In this document: in pieces, positions 2,071-7,770 of the stretch | Numbering within the stretch: position 1 is the stretch's first letter | How the letters are laid out: each line of letters begins with the position of its first letter | Notes under the pieces: generated by a model | What the model was told of the DNA's origin: nothing | The model's input: only the letters and a program-made list of their open reading frames with translations | The model's database searches: none | Source: a bacterium | Lineage (GTDB): Bacteria > JAJRZV01 | Length of the DNA stretch: 7,770 bases | Assembly (NCBI GenBank): GCA_024275095.1 | Contig: JAJRZV010000009.1 | Span: forward strand, 1 to 7,770 | Direction of reading: 5' to 3' | Made by a program: the position numbers and the translations under genes

Positions 2071-3210
2071 ATGAGTCTTGTTGGAAATCTGGAAGACCTC
2101 GGACTTGCGGAAATTCTTCAGATCATTAACCTCAGTCGCAAGTCCGGTTTGCTCAACATCGAAAATGAAGGGAAAAGTTATGTTATCGTGTTCAGGAACG
2201 GTCAGGTGATCTCTGCGTATGAGAAGGACTCAAAGCGCCATCTGGGTCACGCGGTGATTGAGAGAGATATTATGACCATCGAGGAGTTCAATGAACTGGC
2301 ACGAATGTTTAAGGAAAAAGGACAGAAGAACGAAACGCTTAAAGAATTTATCATCCGTAAATCGGATGTGCCGCGTGAACTTATAGAGGATGCTGTGGTT
2401 GAAGAGGTAGAGGAGATTGTTTTCAAAGTCTTCAGTTTCAAGGAAGGAAAGTTTTCATTTGAACTGATAGAGGACGACCGGGAGATCTTCCAAAAGATAC
2501 CCAAAGGAATTCCGTACCTGGATTCGGGACTTAACCCTCAGTACCTGGCAATGGAAGCCGTTCGAATTCGAGAAGAGGCTTTTCGTGGTATAGGAGAGCC
2601 GGAAAAAGCCCGGAAAGAAGGAAGCGGTGAGGAGAAATACGAGCGGCTGGAGTTCAGTGAACTTGACTCTTACGATTTCAGCGGGGACATGGGGTATGAC
2701 CAGTGGTCCCTCCTGCGGTCTTTTATCTACGAACTCGCACTTCCGGGAGGCTCAGCCGATGTCAGCCTCATGGTACTTCGGTTCGCAGGAGAGATGTTCA
2801 GACGAGCTGTAATATTCGCCGTTCGAAGAGAGAAGTTTATCGGTGTGGGTGCAGTGGCTGAGGGGGATTCCGGAGTAGACCCGGAAGGGGTGAAAAAGAT
2901 CGTTATCGGCCTGGGCGAGGAATCCATACTCAAAGATGCGTATGTTCAGAAGAGGCCTGTAAAGCGCCGGTTACTGGAAAGCGGCGGGGATCGAATGCTC
3001 ATACAGGCACTTGGAGGTTATGAACCTGCAGAGTCCTATGCAGCACCTCTTATAGTGGCAGGAAGGGTTGCTGCCGTTATTTACTGCGATAATGCCCCAG
3101 ATACCAAGGAGGTTGGTGATACAAGCGCTCTTGAGGTTTTTATGTTGCAAGCAGGACTTGTGATGGAGAAAATGTTACTGGAGAAAAAAATTAAAGAAAA
3201 ACTTCAATAA
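2071..3210 (+). CDS. DUF4388 (PATAN-like) plus GAF-like domain protein
   Basis: 379-residue soluble protein with no signal peptide or membrane segment. Residues 1-135 look like a DUF4388/PATAN domain: the opening MSLVGNLEDLGLAEILQIIN, then SRKSGLLNIENEGKS and the strand IVFRNGQVISAY are typical, followed by helices ending near EEVEEIVFKVFSFKEGKFSF. Residues about 170-205 are a charged linker. Residues about 208-365 resemble a GAF-like sensory fold, with SYAAPLIVAGRVAAVIYCDN (322-341) matching the usual 'PL-GRV-GV-Y-DN' pattern. The end, KMLLEKKIKEKLQ, is a basic helix. PATAN domains are known from cyanobacterial PatA-type regulators, where they are fused to a receiver; here the receiver is the separate next gene. 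ATG start two bases after cdsA, with GGAG at 2057-2060. Likely a regulatory or output partner of the CheA/CheY pair (inference). The ligand of the GAF-like domain, if any, is unknown. Confidence 0.8.
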   Translation: MSLVGNLEDLGLAEILQIINLSRKSGLLNIENEGKSYVIVFRNGQVISAYEKDSKRHLGHAVIERDIMTIEEFNELARMFKEKGQKNETLKEFIIRKSDVPRELIEDAVVEEVEEIVFKVFSFKEGKFSFELIEDDREIFQKIPKGIPYLDSGLNPQYLAMEAVRIREEAFRGIGEPEKARKEGSGEEKYERLEFSELDSYDFSGDMGYDQWSLLRSFIYELALPGGSADVSLMVLRFAGEMFRRAVIFAVRREKFIGVGAVAEGDSGVDPEGVKKIVIGLGEESILKDAYVQKRPVKRRLLESGGDRMLIQALGGYEPAESYAAPLIVAGRVAAVIYCDNAPDTKEVGDTSALEVFMLQAGLVMEKMLLEKKIKEKLQ

Positions 3211-3224: not shown

Positions 3225-3608
3225 GTGGAGAGGAAGAAAAAAGTGCTTGTTGTCGAAGATTCCCGGATTACTCGAGACCTCATTGTGGCGACTATTGAGG
3301 AAGGGACGGGAGCTCAGGTCGTGCAGGCCGAAAACGGTTTTCGCGCTTTAAAGTTGATTCCTGCGGAAGGCCCTTTCGACCTGATGGTATTCGACATTAA
3401 TATGCCCGATATCAACGGGCTCGAGTTGGTACGTTTCGTCAGAGAAAGTGAGCATCTGAGGGACGTGCCAGTGATTATCGTTTCCACCGAAGGTAAAAAA
3501 AGCGATATCCAGCGGGGTTTCCAGGCAGGAGCTGACGATTATATCGTGAAGCCCTTTTCCACGGAGCAGCTTTTGAATGTAGTGAAAAAATACCTTGGGA
3601 ACAGGTAA
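3225..3608 (+). CDS. cheY: CheY-like single-domain response regulator
   Basis: 127-residue stand-alone receiver domain, the likely phosphoryl acceptor of the CheA encoded next. The acidic pocket is E11-D12, the phosphorylated aspartate is D57 in FDINMPDINGLEL, the switch hydroxyl residue is S87 (threonine in E. coli CheY), the aromatic switch is Y106, and the invariant lysine is K109 before P110. Numbering of D57, 87, Y106 and K109 matches E. coli CheY. There is no output domain, so it must act by protein contact. GTG start, 14 bases after the DUF4388 gene. The stop TAA shares its last A with the cheA ATG, giving translational coupling. The target could be a flagellar switch, a pilus motor or the neighbouring DUF4388 protein; the sequence does not decide. 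No phosphatase gene (CheZ, CheC or CheX) is present in the window. Confidence 0.93.
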   Translation: MERKKKVLVVEDSRITRDLIVATIEEGTGAQVVQAENGFRALKLIPAEGPFDLMVFDINMPDINGLELVRFVRESEHLRDVPVIIVSTEGKKSDIQRGFQAGADDYIVKPFSTEQLLNVVKKYLGNR

Positions 3609-5614
3609 TGTCGGACCCGTTAGACAGTGCATACAAGGAATTTATTGCTGAATGTGAAGAGCATATAGAGGAACTTTACCGGAACATAGATGAACTCGAG
3701 TCTGCCGTTAGCGGGGGCAAGCGAATCGACCCCGATGTATTGAATGCAATGTTCAGGGCTGCCCATTCCCTCAAGGGCGTTTCCGGAATGTTCGGGTTTG
3801 AAACGCTCAGTAAACTCAGCCACGATCTGGAGAACATTCTTGATGAGTTGCGTCTGGGTAAGAGGCAGGCAACCCAAACGTTTATCGGCCATCTTTACGA
3901 TGCAGTGGATGCTTTGAGGAAAATACTTGCAGCGGGGAAGGAGGATGCGCTTTCGGACGAGGTGCGGCGCGAGGCAGTGAACATAATAGATCAGCTCATG
4001 AAAACACGGGAAGAAGAGTCCCCCAAAGGCATAGAAGAATCGGGTTATGACGTGCCCGAACGAATTGTATCTGTAATGACTGAATACGAAGAACACCGCC
4101 TCAGGGAAAACATGCGCATGGGGATGAACCTCTATCTTCTTAAGGCGGTGTTTGACCTCGAGGATTTTGACGAGAGGCTGAACCTTCTCAACGAACGGAT
4201 CAAGCAGGACGGGGGCGAGGTGATATCCACACTTCCCAGTGCTGATGAAGTGGAGCCTGGAAAGATTAAATTTGAATTGCTTGTGGGTACAGAGAGTGCT
4301 CTGGAAGAGGTTAAAAAGAAACTATCGGATTTTAAAATTGAAATAGAAGAGCTGAAAAAGAAGGCAGAGGTTCCACCTGCCCCTGCCCCCCCGGTTGAAG
4401 AGAAGCCTCCGCCTCCTCCCACAGAAACACCCGTGCATACAACCCAGTTTTTGAGAGTAGAGATCTACAGGCTTGATGAAATTATGAATGTAGTCGGTGA
4501 GTTGTTTCTTGCAAGAACAGCAGTGGGACGCCTGCTGGAGAGGTGGAAAAGAGAAGGGAAAGATACCGAGGATATACTCGAGCTTGAGCGTATTGAGAGA
4601 AGCATGGAAAGAAACCTCAACGATTTGCGCGAGCGCATAATGGAAATTCGCATGATACCGGTGAAATCACTTTTTGATCGGGTTACGCGTGCAGTCAAGA
4701 AGATTGCGAGAGAGATGAAAAAGGACATCGTTATTGAATATTCAGGTGAAGAGACAAAACTGGATAAGTTCATCATAGAGGAACTTATGGACCCCCTCAT
4801 GCATATCATCAGGAACTCCATTGACCATGGATTGGAATCGCCTGAAGAACGCATGCTGGCCGGAAAACCAGAAACAGGCCGTATTTCCCTTCTTGCATAT
4901 CAAAAAGGCAATCACGTGGTAATTGAAGTGGAGGATGACGGTCGAGGTATCGACGTGGAAAAGATTAGAGCCAAAGCAGTGGAAAAAGGGCTCATAGGGC
5001 GTGGGGAGGTTATCTCGGAGGAGGAATTGCTTAACCTTATATTCATGCCGGGATTCAGCACCAAGGATGAGGTAAGCATGATTTCCGGGCGGGGAGTGGG
5101 TCTTGATGTGGTGGCGGATAAGATAAAGGGTCTTCGGGGTATTGTGGAGGTAAAGACGAAGAAAGGTGAAATGACGCGTTTCGTACTTACCCTGCCCATG
5201 ACATTGGCCATTATTCAGGCCCTTCTCATCAAGATCGGGGAAAGGGAGTTCGGTATTCCTATTACGGCTGTTCATGAGACCATTGAATATGAAAGTTCCA
5301 TACTTCGAGCCGTGGAAGGTAGGGAGGTGGTTTTGCTCAGGGATGAAACCATTCCCATACTGAATCTGGAGCAAATGTTTTCTTTTTCAACAGATGGCTA
5401 TGAGCCCCGATTTCTCATTATTACAGGAATGGGAGACCGTAAGGTGGGCATCCCTGTAACCGACCTTATAGGTCGCAGTGATGTAGTGATTAAAAGTCTG
5501 GGTGGAGTGTTCAAAAATTTGAAGGGAATCGCAGGAGCTGCTGATCTGGGAGAGGATCGGATTGTCCTGATCCTGGATGTAACCTCGTTGCTGGAAGAAG
5601 TGGTGAGGGTGTGA
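3608..5614 (+). CDS. cheA: Chemosensory histidine kinase CheA
   Basis: 668-residue cytoplasmic kinase of chemosensory arrays that autophosphorylates and passes phosphate to CheY. P1 (HPt) spans about 1-125 with phosphorylated H53 in AAHSLKG. Residues about 150-252 form a second small domain in the place of P2 (NLYLLKAVFDL, then GGEVISTLP and KIKFELLVGTES). A proline-rich linker follows at 256-275. P3, the dimerisation helices, covers about 281-350. P4, the ATPase domain, covers about 351-530: N box IIRNSIDHG (401-408 region, N403), G1 box DDGRGID (443-449), F box FMPGFSTKDEV and G2 box SGRGVGLDVV (493-502). P5, the CheW-like coupling domain, runs from about 531 to 665. All catalytic motifs look intact. 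The start overlaps the cheY stop by one base, with GGGA at 3597-3600. The last codons GTG AGG GTG also provide the ribosome-binding site of the next gene. Assignment is secure; the output pathway is not. Confidence 0.97.
   Translation: MSDPLDSAYKEFIAECEEHIEELYRNIDELESAVSGGKRIDPDVLNAMFRAAHSLKGVSGMFGFETLSKLSHDLENILDELRLGKRQATQTFIGHLYDAVDALRKILAAGKEDALSDEVRREAVNIIDQLMKTREEESPKGIEESGYDVPERIVSVMTEYEEHRLRENMRMGMNLYLLKAVFDLEDFDERLNLLNERIKQDGGEVISTLPSADEVEPGKIKFELLVGTESALEEVKKKLSDFKIEIEELKKKAEVPPAPAPPVEEKPPPPPTETPVHTTQFLRVEIYRLDEIMNVVGELFLARTAVGRLLERWKREGKDTEDILELERIERSMERNLNDLRERIMEIRMIPVKSLFDRVTRAVKKIAREMKKDIVIEYSGEETKLDKFIIEELMDPLMHIIRNSIDHGLESPEERMLAGKPETGRISLLAYQKGNHVVIEVEDDGRGIDVEKIRAKAVEKGLIGRGEVISEEELLNLIFMPGFSTKDEVSMISGRGVGLDVVADKIKGLRGIVEVKTKKGEMTRFVLTLPMTLAIIQALLIKIGEREFGIPITAVHETIEYESSILRAVEGREVVLLRDETIPILNLEQMFSFSTDGYEPRFLIITGMGDRKVGIPVTDLIGRSDVVIKSLGGVFKNLKGIAGAADLGEDRIVLILDVTSLLEEVVRV
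4373..4432 (+). other. Proline-rich linker in CheA between P2-like domain and P3
   Basis: Residues 256-275 of CheA hold eleven prolines mixed with alanine, glutamate and threonine. They separate the P2-like domain from the dimerisation domain and probably form a stiff, extended tether that lets P1 reach the ATPase domain. The coding strand contains a run of seven C at 4386-4392, but the frame stays open across it. Confidence 0.75.
5605..5609 (+). promoter_or_regulatory. Ribosome-binding site deciding the ATPase start
   Basis: GAGGG lies seven bases before the ATG at 5617, and only one base before the GTG at 5611 that would give the longest open frame. Spacing and the family's usual N-terminus (M-Y-x-x-F-Y-G-L) both favour ATG 5617. 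The site is encoded by the last codons of cheA. Confidence 0.8.
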
Positions 5615-5616
5615 AT

Positions 5617-6426
5617 ATGTATGAAAGTTTTTACGGACTTGATGCCAAGCCTTTCTCCAAAACTCCCGACCCTGAATTTCTCTACATGAGCAAACAGCAT
5701 GCGGAAGCTCTTGCACGTCTGCAATTCGCAGCCGAAGAGAAGGAAATCATGGTTCTTACCGGTGAAATAGGAACGGGGAAGACGACTCTTTCAAGGGCTC
5801 TGTTTGATTCCCTGGGGGATTCGTATAAAAAGATTCTCATCATCAATCCAGTACTTTCTCCATACCAGTTTTTAAGGGTGCTCGCCAGGCGTCTGGGTGT
5901 TTCTCAGCTTCCGAGGTCGAGAAGTGAACTGTCAGAAAAAATTCAGGAGGCTTTTTTCGAATTTTTTGAACAGGGAATCACGCCAGTTATTGTAGTGGAC
6001 GAGGCACAACTCATACCTGGTAAACCTACTTTTGATGAGATACGCCTGCTCACCAATTTTCAGCTGGATGATACGAACCTCTTTTGTTTGATTCTTGTCG
6101 GACAGCCGGAACTCAACCGGAGGTTAAGGCACCCTGCATACCGGGCACTCAGCCAGCGTTTCGGCCTCCGTTTTCACCTTGATCCTCTGAGCCTTGATGA
6201 GACGCGGGAATACATCAAGTTTCGCTTGGAGAAAGCAGGGGGCACGCTGGATGTTTTTTCTGAAAACGCTGTGGAACTGATTTATAAATATTCCGGGGGT
6301 ATTCCCAGGGTCATCAACAACATTGCATCCGCATGCCTCATAGAAGGTTTTGCTCGAGAGGAGAGAGTAATATCTCCTGACGTGGTTGAAGATGTTGTTT
6401 CAGATCTTGGGCTGAAAGAGGATTGA
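5617..6426 (+). CDS. ExeA/GspA-type AAA+ ATPase (ATPase domain only)
   Basis: 269-residue cytoplasmic P-loop ATPase. The N-terminus MYESFYGLDAKPFSKTPDP is the hallmark opening of the ExeA/GspA family. Walker A is GEIGTGKTT (49-57), Walker B is VIVVDEAQ (124-131), the sensor-1 region is LILVGQPEL (158-166), R177 or R181 in YRALSQRFG may be the arginine finger, and SGGIPRVINN (226-235) is the sensor-2 segment. ExeA of type II secretion carries a transmembrane segment and a peptidoglycan-binding region after the ATPase; both are absent, so this is the short form also found in exopolysaccharide/exosortase loci and resembling TnsC/TniB-like ATPases. It begins two bases after cheA and ends two bases before cheW, so it is part of the chemosensory operon. 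The start is ATG 5617 rather than GTG 5611. Its role here is unknown; an energy-using effector or assembly factor controlled by the pathway is one inference. Confidence 0.88.
   Translation: MYESFYGLDAKPFSKTPDPEFLYMSKQHAEALARLQFAAEEKEIMVLTGEIGTGKTTLSRALFDSLGDSYKKILIINPVLSPYQFLRVLARRLGVSQLPRSRSELSEKIQEAFFEFFEQGITPVIVVDEAQLIPGKPTFDEIRLLTNFQLDDTNLFCLILVGQPELNRRLRHPAYRALSQRFGLRFHLDPLSLDETREYIKFRLEKAGGTLDVFSENAVELIYKYSGGIPRVINNIASACLIEGFAREERVISPDVVEDVVSDLGLKED
6418..6421 (+). promoter_or_regulatory. Ribosome-binding site deciding the first cheW start
   Basis: GAGG (within AAGAGGAT) lies seven bases before ATG 6429. The longest open frame would begin at TTG 6423, immediately adjacent to this site and overlapping the upstream stop, which is too close for initiation. 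ATG 6429 is therefore chosen. Confidence 0.8.
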
Positions 6427-6428
6427 GC

Positions 6429-7274
6429 ATGGATATTCTCGAAGCAAGGAAAAAGGCTAAGACAAAAAGCAGGGGTAAAGGCGTTAAAAAGCGTCGTAAG
6501 AAAATTCAACCTGAAGAGAAGAAGCCGGCTAAGAAGGACGAAATTAAGGATGCTATTCTCGAAGCCTCTCAGGACCTTGCAGTAATGGAGGAGGGTCTGG
6601 AAAAAATTGAGGAGAGGGAGGAAGAAAAGGCATTGATTGAAGCGCTGGAAGGGAAAGTTGAAGACGAATCCTCTGGAGAAACGGTTGAAGAGAAAGTGGA
6701 AATGGATCAGCAGGTGTTTCAGGAAACAGAGAAGAAGGAAGAAGACGCAGAACTTTCATTTGCCGATGTGGCCGCGGCTGAGCTCCTCAAGCAGGCCGAG
6801 GCGCAGAAGGCCCTTGGGGAAGAGGTGCAATTTCTGGCCTTCCGACTGGGGAAAGAATTCTTCGCTGTTGAGATTCACCACATTCGTGAAATTGTAAAAC
6901 CGAGGAGTATCACCCCTGTACCGGGTGTTTCAGAACATATACTTGGAATTACATCCGTACGAGGCAATATCATGCCTGTTGTCGATGTGGGTTACAGGAT
7001 AGGGATGTTTGATTCACTTTACGATCCCGGGAATTGGGATAAAAAAACACGGTTTGTTATTTTCAATTTTGACAGGGTTCTTGTGAGCATGGTGGTACAG
7101 GAGGTTGCAGGGGTTATAAAAGCTTTTGAGGAAGAGGTCGAACCAGTGCCTCCTACAGTTACCGGGCCCGCATCAGAATATCTTGTAGGCATTATAAGGC
7201 GTGACTCTGACATCTATACTGTTATCAGTATAAGAGAGGTGTTTGATTTTCTTTTCAAGGCTGAGGGTGATTGA
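6429..7274 (+). CDS. cheW: CheW coupling protein with long charged N-terminal extension
   Basis: 281-residue protein, about 120 residues longer than a typical CheW. Residues 131-277 form a standard CheW domain that links chemoreceptors to CheA: VQFLAFRLGKEFFAVEIHHI opens it, VPGVSEHILGITSVRGN (164-180) includes the conserved arginine R178, and IMPVVDVGYRIG follows. Residues 1-36 are strongly basic (K/R clusters such as KKRRKK at 20-25). Residues about 38-110 are very rich in glutamate, probably helical or coiled-coil, and about 110-130 form an alanine-rich helix leading into the domain. No signal peptide or membrane segment is seen. The ATG start lies two bases after the ATPase stop. The last codons (AAG GCT GAG GGT GAT) contain the ribosome-binding site of the second cheW. 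The CheW call is secure; the role of the extension is unknown, with array scaffolding, partner binding or anionic-surface binding all possible. Confidence 0.93.
   Translation: MDILEARKKAKTKSRGKGVKKRRKKIQPEEKKPAKKDEIKDAILEASQDLAVMEEGLEKIEEREEEKALIEALEGKVEDESSGETVEEKVEMDQQVFQETEKKEEDAELSFADVAAAELLKQAEAQKALGEEVQFLAFRLGKEFFAVEIHHIREIVKPRSITPVPGVSEHILGITSVRGNIMPVVDVGYRIGMFDSLYDPGNWDKKTRFVIFNFDRVLVSMVVQEVAGVIKAFEEEVEPVPPTVTGPASEYLVGIIRRDSDIYTVISIREVFDFLFKAEGD
7263..7267 (+). promoter_or_regulatory. Ribosome-binding site for the second cheW
   Basis: GAGGG lies eight bases before GTG 7276. An in-frame GTG at 7267 with AAGG at 7257-7260 is a possible alternative and would add three residues (M-I-E). 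The 7276 start keeps the 1-2-base spacing seen at most other junctions of this operon. Confidence 0.55.
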
Positions 7275-7275
7275 A

Positions 7276-7770
7276 GTGGCTGAGTTTGTAGAGTACAGAG
7301 TTGATGGAGTTCATTTCGCCATAGATATAATGGAAGTGTTTGAAATCATTATGCCTCCGGAAAACGTTATACCCGTTCCCCAGGCACCATCGTACGTAAA
7401 AGGACTTTACGATTTGCGGGGTACAGTCATTCCCATTGTGGATATGAGATTAAAGCTGGGTATTGAAGCTTCTCCTCTTACCAAAAAAGCGAGGGTACTC
7501 GTGGCCAGAGTGGGAGAGAAGCCCATGGGAATATTGGTGGATGAGGCTTCCCGGATTCTTCGAGTCTCAAATGAGGCAGTAAAACCTCCTCCAGAGGTGT
7601 TCGTTGAGGCCCAGGAAGGCGCATTTATGAAAGGAGTGCTCAGGGATGCCGGTAGACTTGTTTTAATTCTTGATCATTCTCGCGTTTTCAAAGAGAGGGC
7701 TGTTATAGCTCTTGAGGAATTAAAGAAAGGTATAGAGGAGGTAAAAACCAGCAAAACAAAATCCAAGAAA
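7276..7770 (+). CDS. cheW: Second CheW coupling protein, 3' end beyond window
   Basis: The frame is open from GTG 7276 to the window end (165 codons, no stop), so the gene is 3' partial. Residues about 1-138 form a CheW domain: AEFVEYRVDGVHFAIDIMEV, then VPQAPSYVKGLYDLRGTVIP with conserved R48, VDMRLKLG, GILVDEASRILRV and the closing VLRDAGRLVLILDHSRVF. Residues 139-165 leave the fold as a charged helix ending in a lysine-rich tail (KTSKTKSKK). The domain is complete, so the protein probably ends soon after 7770, but a further fused domain cannot be excluded. It starts one base after the first cheW stop and differs clearly from it in sequence, so the two are diverged paralogs rather than a recent duplication. 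Two coupling proteins may serve different receptors or different positions in the array. Start codon choice (7276 versus 7267) is uncertain. Confidence 0.93.
   Translation, partial: MAEFVEYRVDGVHFAIDIMEVFEIIMPPENVIPVPQAPSYVKGLYDLRGTVIPIVDMRLKLGIEASPLTKKARVLVARVGEKPMGILVDEASRILRVSNEAVKPPPEVFVEAQEGAFMKGVLRDAGRLVLILDHSRVFKERAVIALEELKKGIEEVKTSKTKSKK

Follow-up and report, generated by a model that had tools for sequence, protein, structure and literature searches.

A conserved ExeA-type AAA+ ATPase whose gene is flanked by cheA and a tagged cheW: a candidate array factor of a chemosensory class found in several phyla

AAA+ ATPases of the ExeA/GspA family are tied to secretin assembly (PMC4098917), and a gene of this type placed between cheA and cheW raises the question of what such a protein does in a chemosensory operon. 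The window (the whole stretch of 7,770 nucleotides analyzed here) encodes CheA, a CheY-like receiver, a DUF4388 protein, CstA, CdsA, the ATPase, an N-terminally extended CheW (CheW-ext), and a second CheW (Table 1). The ATPase gene (ATG at 5617, TGA at 6424–6426) is separated by 2 nt from the cheA stop codon (TGA, 5612–5614) and by another 2 nt from the cheW start codon (ATG, 6429); a TTG at 6423 was set aside in favor of this ATG as the CheW-ext start. The window captures just the beginning of the operon. The last 141 bases of the window contig (C82, 7630–7770) match the first 141 bases of contig C95 (L041 1–141) exactly, which makes the operon contiguous from one contig to the other. Its remainder on C95 encodes two methyl-accepting chemotaxis proteins (MCPs), a zinc-ribbon/receiver protein, a HEAT-repeat protein, CheR, CheB, a GAF protein, and a second CheY. 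Both the zinc-ribbon/receiver protein and the HEAT-repeat protein (L041 4798–7784) are recurring members of the operon. A secreted protein that by eye resembles phosphate-type substrate-binding proteins is encoded between two operon MCP genes at two loci (L003 13446–14276 and L025 13524–14333).

Table 1. Features of the chemosensory gene cluster in the window. Counts of relatives refer to loci for which the available sequence sufficed.
Feature	Position	Strand	Basis
DUF4388 protein	2071..3210	+	ORF and Pfam match; upstream in 13/17 relatives
CheY-like receiver	3225..3608	+	ORF and Pfam match; CheY upstream of cheA in 15/17 relatives
CheA histidine kinase (Hpt, dimerization, HATPase, and CheW domains)	3608..5614	+	ORF and Pfam match
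ExeA-type AAA+ ATPase of 269 aa, comprising just the AAA+ core and lid	5617..6426	+	ORF, profile matches, alignment, AF2 core of a relative
CheW-ext (N-terminal tag, variable linker, CheW domain)	6429..7274	+	ORF, Pfam match, alignment
Conserved CheW-ext tag, here MDILEARKKA	6429..6458	+	Alignment of 27 CheW-ext
Second CheW, no tag	7243..7770	+	ORF and Pfam match; crosses the contig end into C95

The 2.45-Mb genome that contains the window has one CheA, five MCPs, and several ATPases of the PilB/PilT type. The window CheA provides its single H-kinase_dim match, and FliG was not found in the genome. With one CheA and no FliG, this chemosensory system is not flagellar; given the PilB/PilT-like ATPases and the absence of FliG, outputs such as pili are plausible. 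The genome has two ExeA-like ATPases, of which just the window copy lies by cheA. The second (L042 7648–8565, in G000:C121) has a TIGR03015 score of 222.3 bits and is located between genes for TPR proteins and for a large protein of AsmA-like appearance.

For the ATPase itself, the first-pass annotation had described an intact Walker A/B protein of the ExeA type, 2 nt from each neighbor, and the open reading frame, motifs, profile match, and coordinates all agree with that description. The protein matches Pfam AAA_22 at 83.5 bits and has intact Walker A (GEIGTGKTT), Walker B (VVDEAQ), arginine-finger (QR), and sensor-2-like (GIPRVIN) positions. Among the ATPases of 26 relatives, G49, G52, G54, K55, T56, T57, D128, and E129 are invariant, as are Q180, R181, G228, P230, R231, and N234. 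An AAA+ core and the N-terminal motif MYxxFYGLxxxPF are shared with ExeA/GspA and with the XrtA/PEP-CTERM ATPases described by TIGR03015. However, the protein scores 236.2 bits against TIGR03015, under the cut-off of 324.5, and identity as an XrtA/PEP-CTERM ATPase was rejected on this score. Furthermore, no gspB, secretin, or XrtA gene adjoins it, and che genes surround it in the window and on C95. Unlike ExeA/GspA, it ends after the AAA+ lid, so that the transmembrane and peptidoglycan-binding parts of the C-terminal region are absent from its 269 residues, as had been proposed from the first reading. In an AlphaFold2 (AF2) model of a Geobacteraceae relative, the AAA+ core and lid are predicted with confidence; the closest solved folds of this part include Cdc6/ORC, MuB, and TnsC (VIA Z of about 19–20). 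The likeness to TnsC and MuB concerns the fold only; identity in these structural alignments is 14–18%, and there is no transposase context around the ATPase.

The ATPase gene is strictly linked to cheA. When GTDB genomes were searched with the ATPase as the sole query, 27 loci with 52–58% identity were returned, and cheA is directly upstream in 27/27. The gene also adjoins cheA in 16/16 further Geobacteraceae loci, with cheW on the other side where the locus was long enough, and in 30/30 of the Nitrospirota loci read. In total, cheA immediately precedes the gene in all of about 70 relatives (51–59% identity; the number is approximate because some genomes were possibly reached twice), which come from Nitrospirota, Geobacteraceae, Acidobacteriota, and other lineages. 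The first-pass annotation had named the absence of this neighborhood from relatives as the sign of a chance insertion; the neighborhood is conserved in all of these relatives, and chance insertion is thus rejected. At one locus, a gene for a hemerythrin-domain protein separates the ATPase gene from that of the tagged CheW (L002 9830–10219), a possible oxygen or metal input.

The che-linked copies are also distinct from other ExeA-like ATPases. Scores fall into two groups in 18 of these genomes, with one cheA-adjacent copy of at least 295 bits and all others at or below 194 bits. The ExeA-like paralogs that were fetched have at most 43% identity, and no CheA was found within about 1.5 kb of the 12 lower-scoring copies from the 18 genomes or of the paralog in the window genome. 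Exactly one high-scoring copy is present in 46 of 48 Geobacteraceae species and in 37 of 148 genomes of the phylum Nitrospirota. The che-linked ATPases form a single clade apart from the paralogs (support 98/90), and ATPase distances follow CheA distances (Spearman rho 0.90 across 26 taxa). A recently transferred secretion ATPase is ruled out by this single clade together with the co-inheritance with CheA.

The cheW downstream of the ATPase carries a short N-terminal tag that is described here for the first time. The near-invariant consensus M[DN][IL]xx[IA]RKKx opens the protein as MNLAEIRKKA in Geobacteraceae, as MDIAKIRKKA, MDLLEIRKKA, or MDILAARKKA in Nitrospirota, and as MDILEARKKA in the window. 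It is present in 46/46 ATPase-bearing Geobacteraceae and in 24 of 30 sampled Nitrospirota loci. When searched at the DNA level, the exact pattern occurs once per genome, beside the ATPase, in 42 of 48 Geobacteraceae, and the reversed pattern has no matches across the same 48 genomes. The remaining four ATPase-bearing Geobacteraceae have RRK variants of the tag in the same place. In two Acidobacteriota and one Nitrospirota (G005, G014, and G017), the tag is retained on a cheW that is unlinked from the ATPase. The linker from the tag to the CheW domain is not conserved in the alignment of 27 CheW-ext proteins. Within Geobacteraceae, however, the part of the linker adjoining the CheW domain contains another conserved helix (FDPxxxxLxGRxxA; L126 3066–3881, CheW-ext residues 105–123).

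The closest described system is Esn of Geobacter sulfurreducens, in which GSU2221, labeled "ATPase", lies between esnC (cheA, GSU2222) and esnB (cheW, GSU2220), the same order of CheA, ATPase, and CheW as in the window. In a transposon sequencing (Tn-Seq) screen, insertions in all three genes impaired growth on electrodes, with log2 values of −2.8 for GSU2222, −2.1 for GSU2221, and −2.4 for GSU2220 (Chan et al., 2017, PMC5585712). The authors of that screen state that the transposon has no polar effect; clean deletions are reported for esnB and esnC, and none is listed for GSU2221. This published screen is the sole experimental hint to the role of the ATPase. The electrode defect is common also to pilus and polysaccharide genes in the same screen, and the output proposed for Esn is the diguanylate cyclase EsnD, which is encoded elsewhere (PMC5585712). 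By its position and by the presence of the ATPase throughout the family, GSU2221 is the presumed ortholog of the window ATPase. The first-pass annotation had regarded such an ATPase as foreign to characterized chemosensory systems. This view does not quite hold, given Esn, where GSU2221 has a Tn-Seq defect. Our literature search found no paper that discusses this ATPase and met GSU2221 only in PMC5585712.

At the level of the whole cluster, the likeness is to the group beta che clusters, described among Geobacter and other delta-proteobacteria with cheA, cheW, cheB, and cheR listed and no mcp (Tran et al., 2008, PMC2577667); the ATPase did not come up when that paper was searched by term. Geobacteraceae loci have CheY and the DUF4388 protein upstream and the HEAT-repeat protein, CheR, and CheB downstream, and cheR and cheB follow on C95, contiguous with the window. 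However, two mcp genes follow in the window operon, and the window lineage belongs to another phylum, with relatives in Nitrospirota and Acidobacteriota. We equate this cluster with group beta on the basis of its gene content and its occurrence throughout the family.

Taken together, the strict linkage to cheA, the single clade, the one copy per genome, the tag on the adjoining CheW, and the shared Tn-Seq defect indicate that the ATPase is a core accessory of this chemosensory class; that it belongs to the class is close to certain. Between the two functions considered at first reading, an output of the kinase pathway and an array-positioning factor, the latter is the better fit, since it is the invariant core (CheY, CheA, and the tagged CheW) that the ATPase accompanies, and not the variable parts. 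An array-level role is therefore favored over an output role. In its full form, the favored reading is that the non-flagellar Geobacter group beta/Esn class has in this ATPase a core accessory of its own, co-inherited with CheA, and that the ATPase may control the assembly or placement of arrays through the tagged CheW. We assign this reading a probability of roughly 0.4.

Contact of the ATPase with the tag, oligomerization, and array control are the parts of this reading that we infer. In the cytoplasm, the ATPase would oligomerize in an ATP-dependent manner, and CheW-ext would couple this oligomer to the receptor array. With its CheW domain in the array, CheW-ext could reach outward through the flexible linker, such that the basic N-terminal tag may contact either the ATPase or some other fixed partner. 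The place, time, or manner of array assembly in this class would then be under the control of ATP turnover. MuB and TnsC are oligomeric AAA+ proteins. A precedent for a peptide hook is suggested by the entry title of the TnsC complex 9gmz.

The arrangement may be compared with ParC/ParP in Vibrio, which involves an unrelated ATPase. The N-terminal part of ParP binds the ATPase ParC, and its CheW-like domain enters the array via a long linker (PMC5706961). In both cases, a che operon encodes an ATPase together with a CheW-like (AIF) protein whose CheW domain is preceded by an N-terminal part and a linker, although binding by the tag is putative here. ParC is of the ParA/MinD type, whereas the window ATPase is an AAA+ protein (AAA_22, ExeA type). 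Moreover, the N-terminal part of CheW-ext is a tag of 10 residues and not a domain, and no sequence kinship is implied. It is conceivable, if somewhat doubtful, that an AAA+ ATPase of the ExeA/TnsC/MuB kind drives the positioning or assembly of arrays in a chemosensory class that is widespread, acting via a short N-terminal tag on a dedicated CheW and representing a second solution independent of ParC/ParP.

The complex of the ATPase with the CheW extension, suggested for prediction by the first-pass annotation, was modeled crudely. A Geobacteraceae locus with ATPase and CheW in one frame was read through, with stops treated as residues, to give a single AF2 chain. The tag had a pLDDT of 57 in this read-through chain vs. 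75 in CheW-ext alone, which gives no indication of docking on the ATPase monomer and no support for the complex; the test is a weak one, judged by pLDDT and with fewer tag-bearing rows and an artificial linker. Natural fusions of ATPase and CheW were not noticed among the loci read. One Geobacteraceae genome (G020) provides a case of natural loss. It lacks the ATPase and keeps cheA and a near-intact tag (MNLAETRKKA), and in the short stretch between these genes, the beginning of the ATPase apparently persists as a remnant (FHGLREKPF; L106, G020:C83). The tag may have another partner in this genome, or the loss of the ATPase may be recent. Since cheA and cheW were not lost with it, the ATPase is not strictly needed.

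Three other explanations were weighed. In the first, the pathway would switch the ATPase through CheY, the zinc-ribbon receiver, or the HEAT-repeat protein, and the ATPase would energize or assemble type IV pili, secretion, or polysaccharide machinery. The tie of ExeA/GspA to secretin assembly (PMC4098917), the PilB/PilT-like ATPases in a genome without FliG, and the electrode defect shared with pilus and polysaccharide genes in Geobacter (PMC5585712) are consistent with such an output. However, the operons of relatives that were read contain no pilus or secretion gene, the ATPase has no transmembrane or peptidoglycan-binding part, its gene is linked instead to cheA and the cheW with the tag, and EsnD, encoded elsewhere, is the output proposed in Geobacter (PMC5585712). 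On balance, an output role appears rather doubtful.

Alternatively, the ATPase may be an AAA+ chaperone that acts on CheA/CheW assembly, exchange, or stoichiometry, with no part in array positioning. The constant and immediate adjacency to cheA, the co-inheritance with CheA, and the basic tag on the adjoining CheW would fit such a remodeler, but the ATPase lacks a substrate-threading or client-binding domain, and G020 kept cheA and cheW after the loss of the ATPase. This explanation is considered unlikely. Finally, a gene of unrelated function that is merely located in the operon would agree with the persistence of cheA and cheW without the ATPase in at least one relative (G020), but it is highly improbable given the position conserved across phyla in all of the approximately 70 loci, the single clade, and a GSU2221 Tn-Seq phenotype of the same kind as those of cheA and cheW.

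These findings identify the ATPase as a real, conserved, and little-noticed component of a chemosensory class that is present in several phyla. The window genome, with its sole CheA found and no FliG, is also a case in which a chemosensory system occurs with no flagellar motor. An Esn-type system governs the growth of Geobacter on electrodes, and the ATPase and the tagged CheW provide two specific core parts of it, namely one gene and one peptide of 10 residues. If the ATPase and the tag do position or assemble arrays, ATP-driven control of chemosensory arrays would extend beyond ParA-type proteins.
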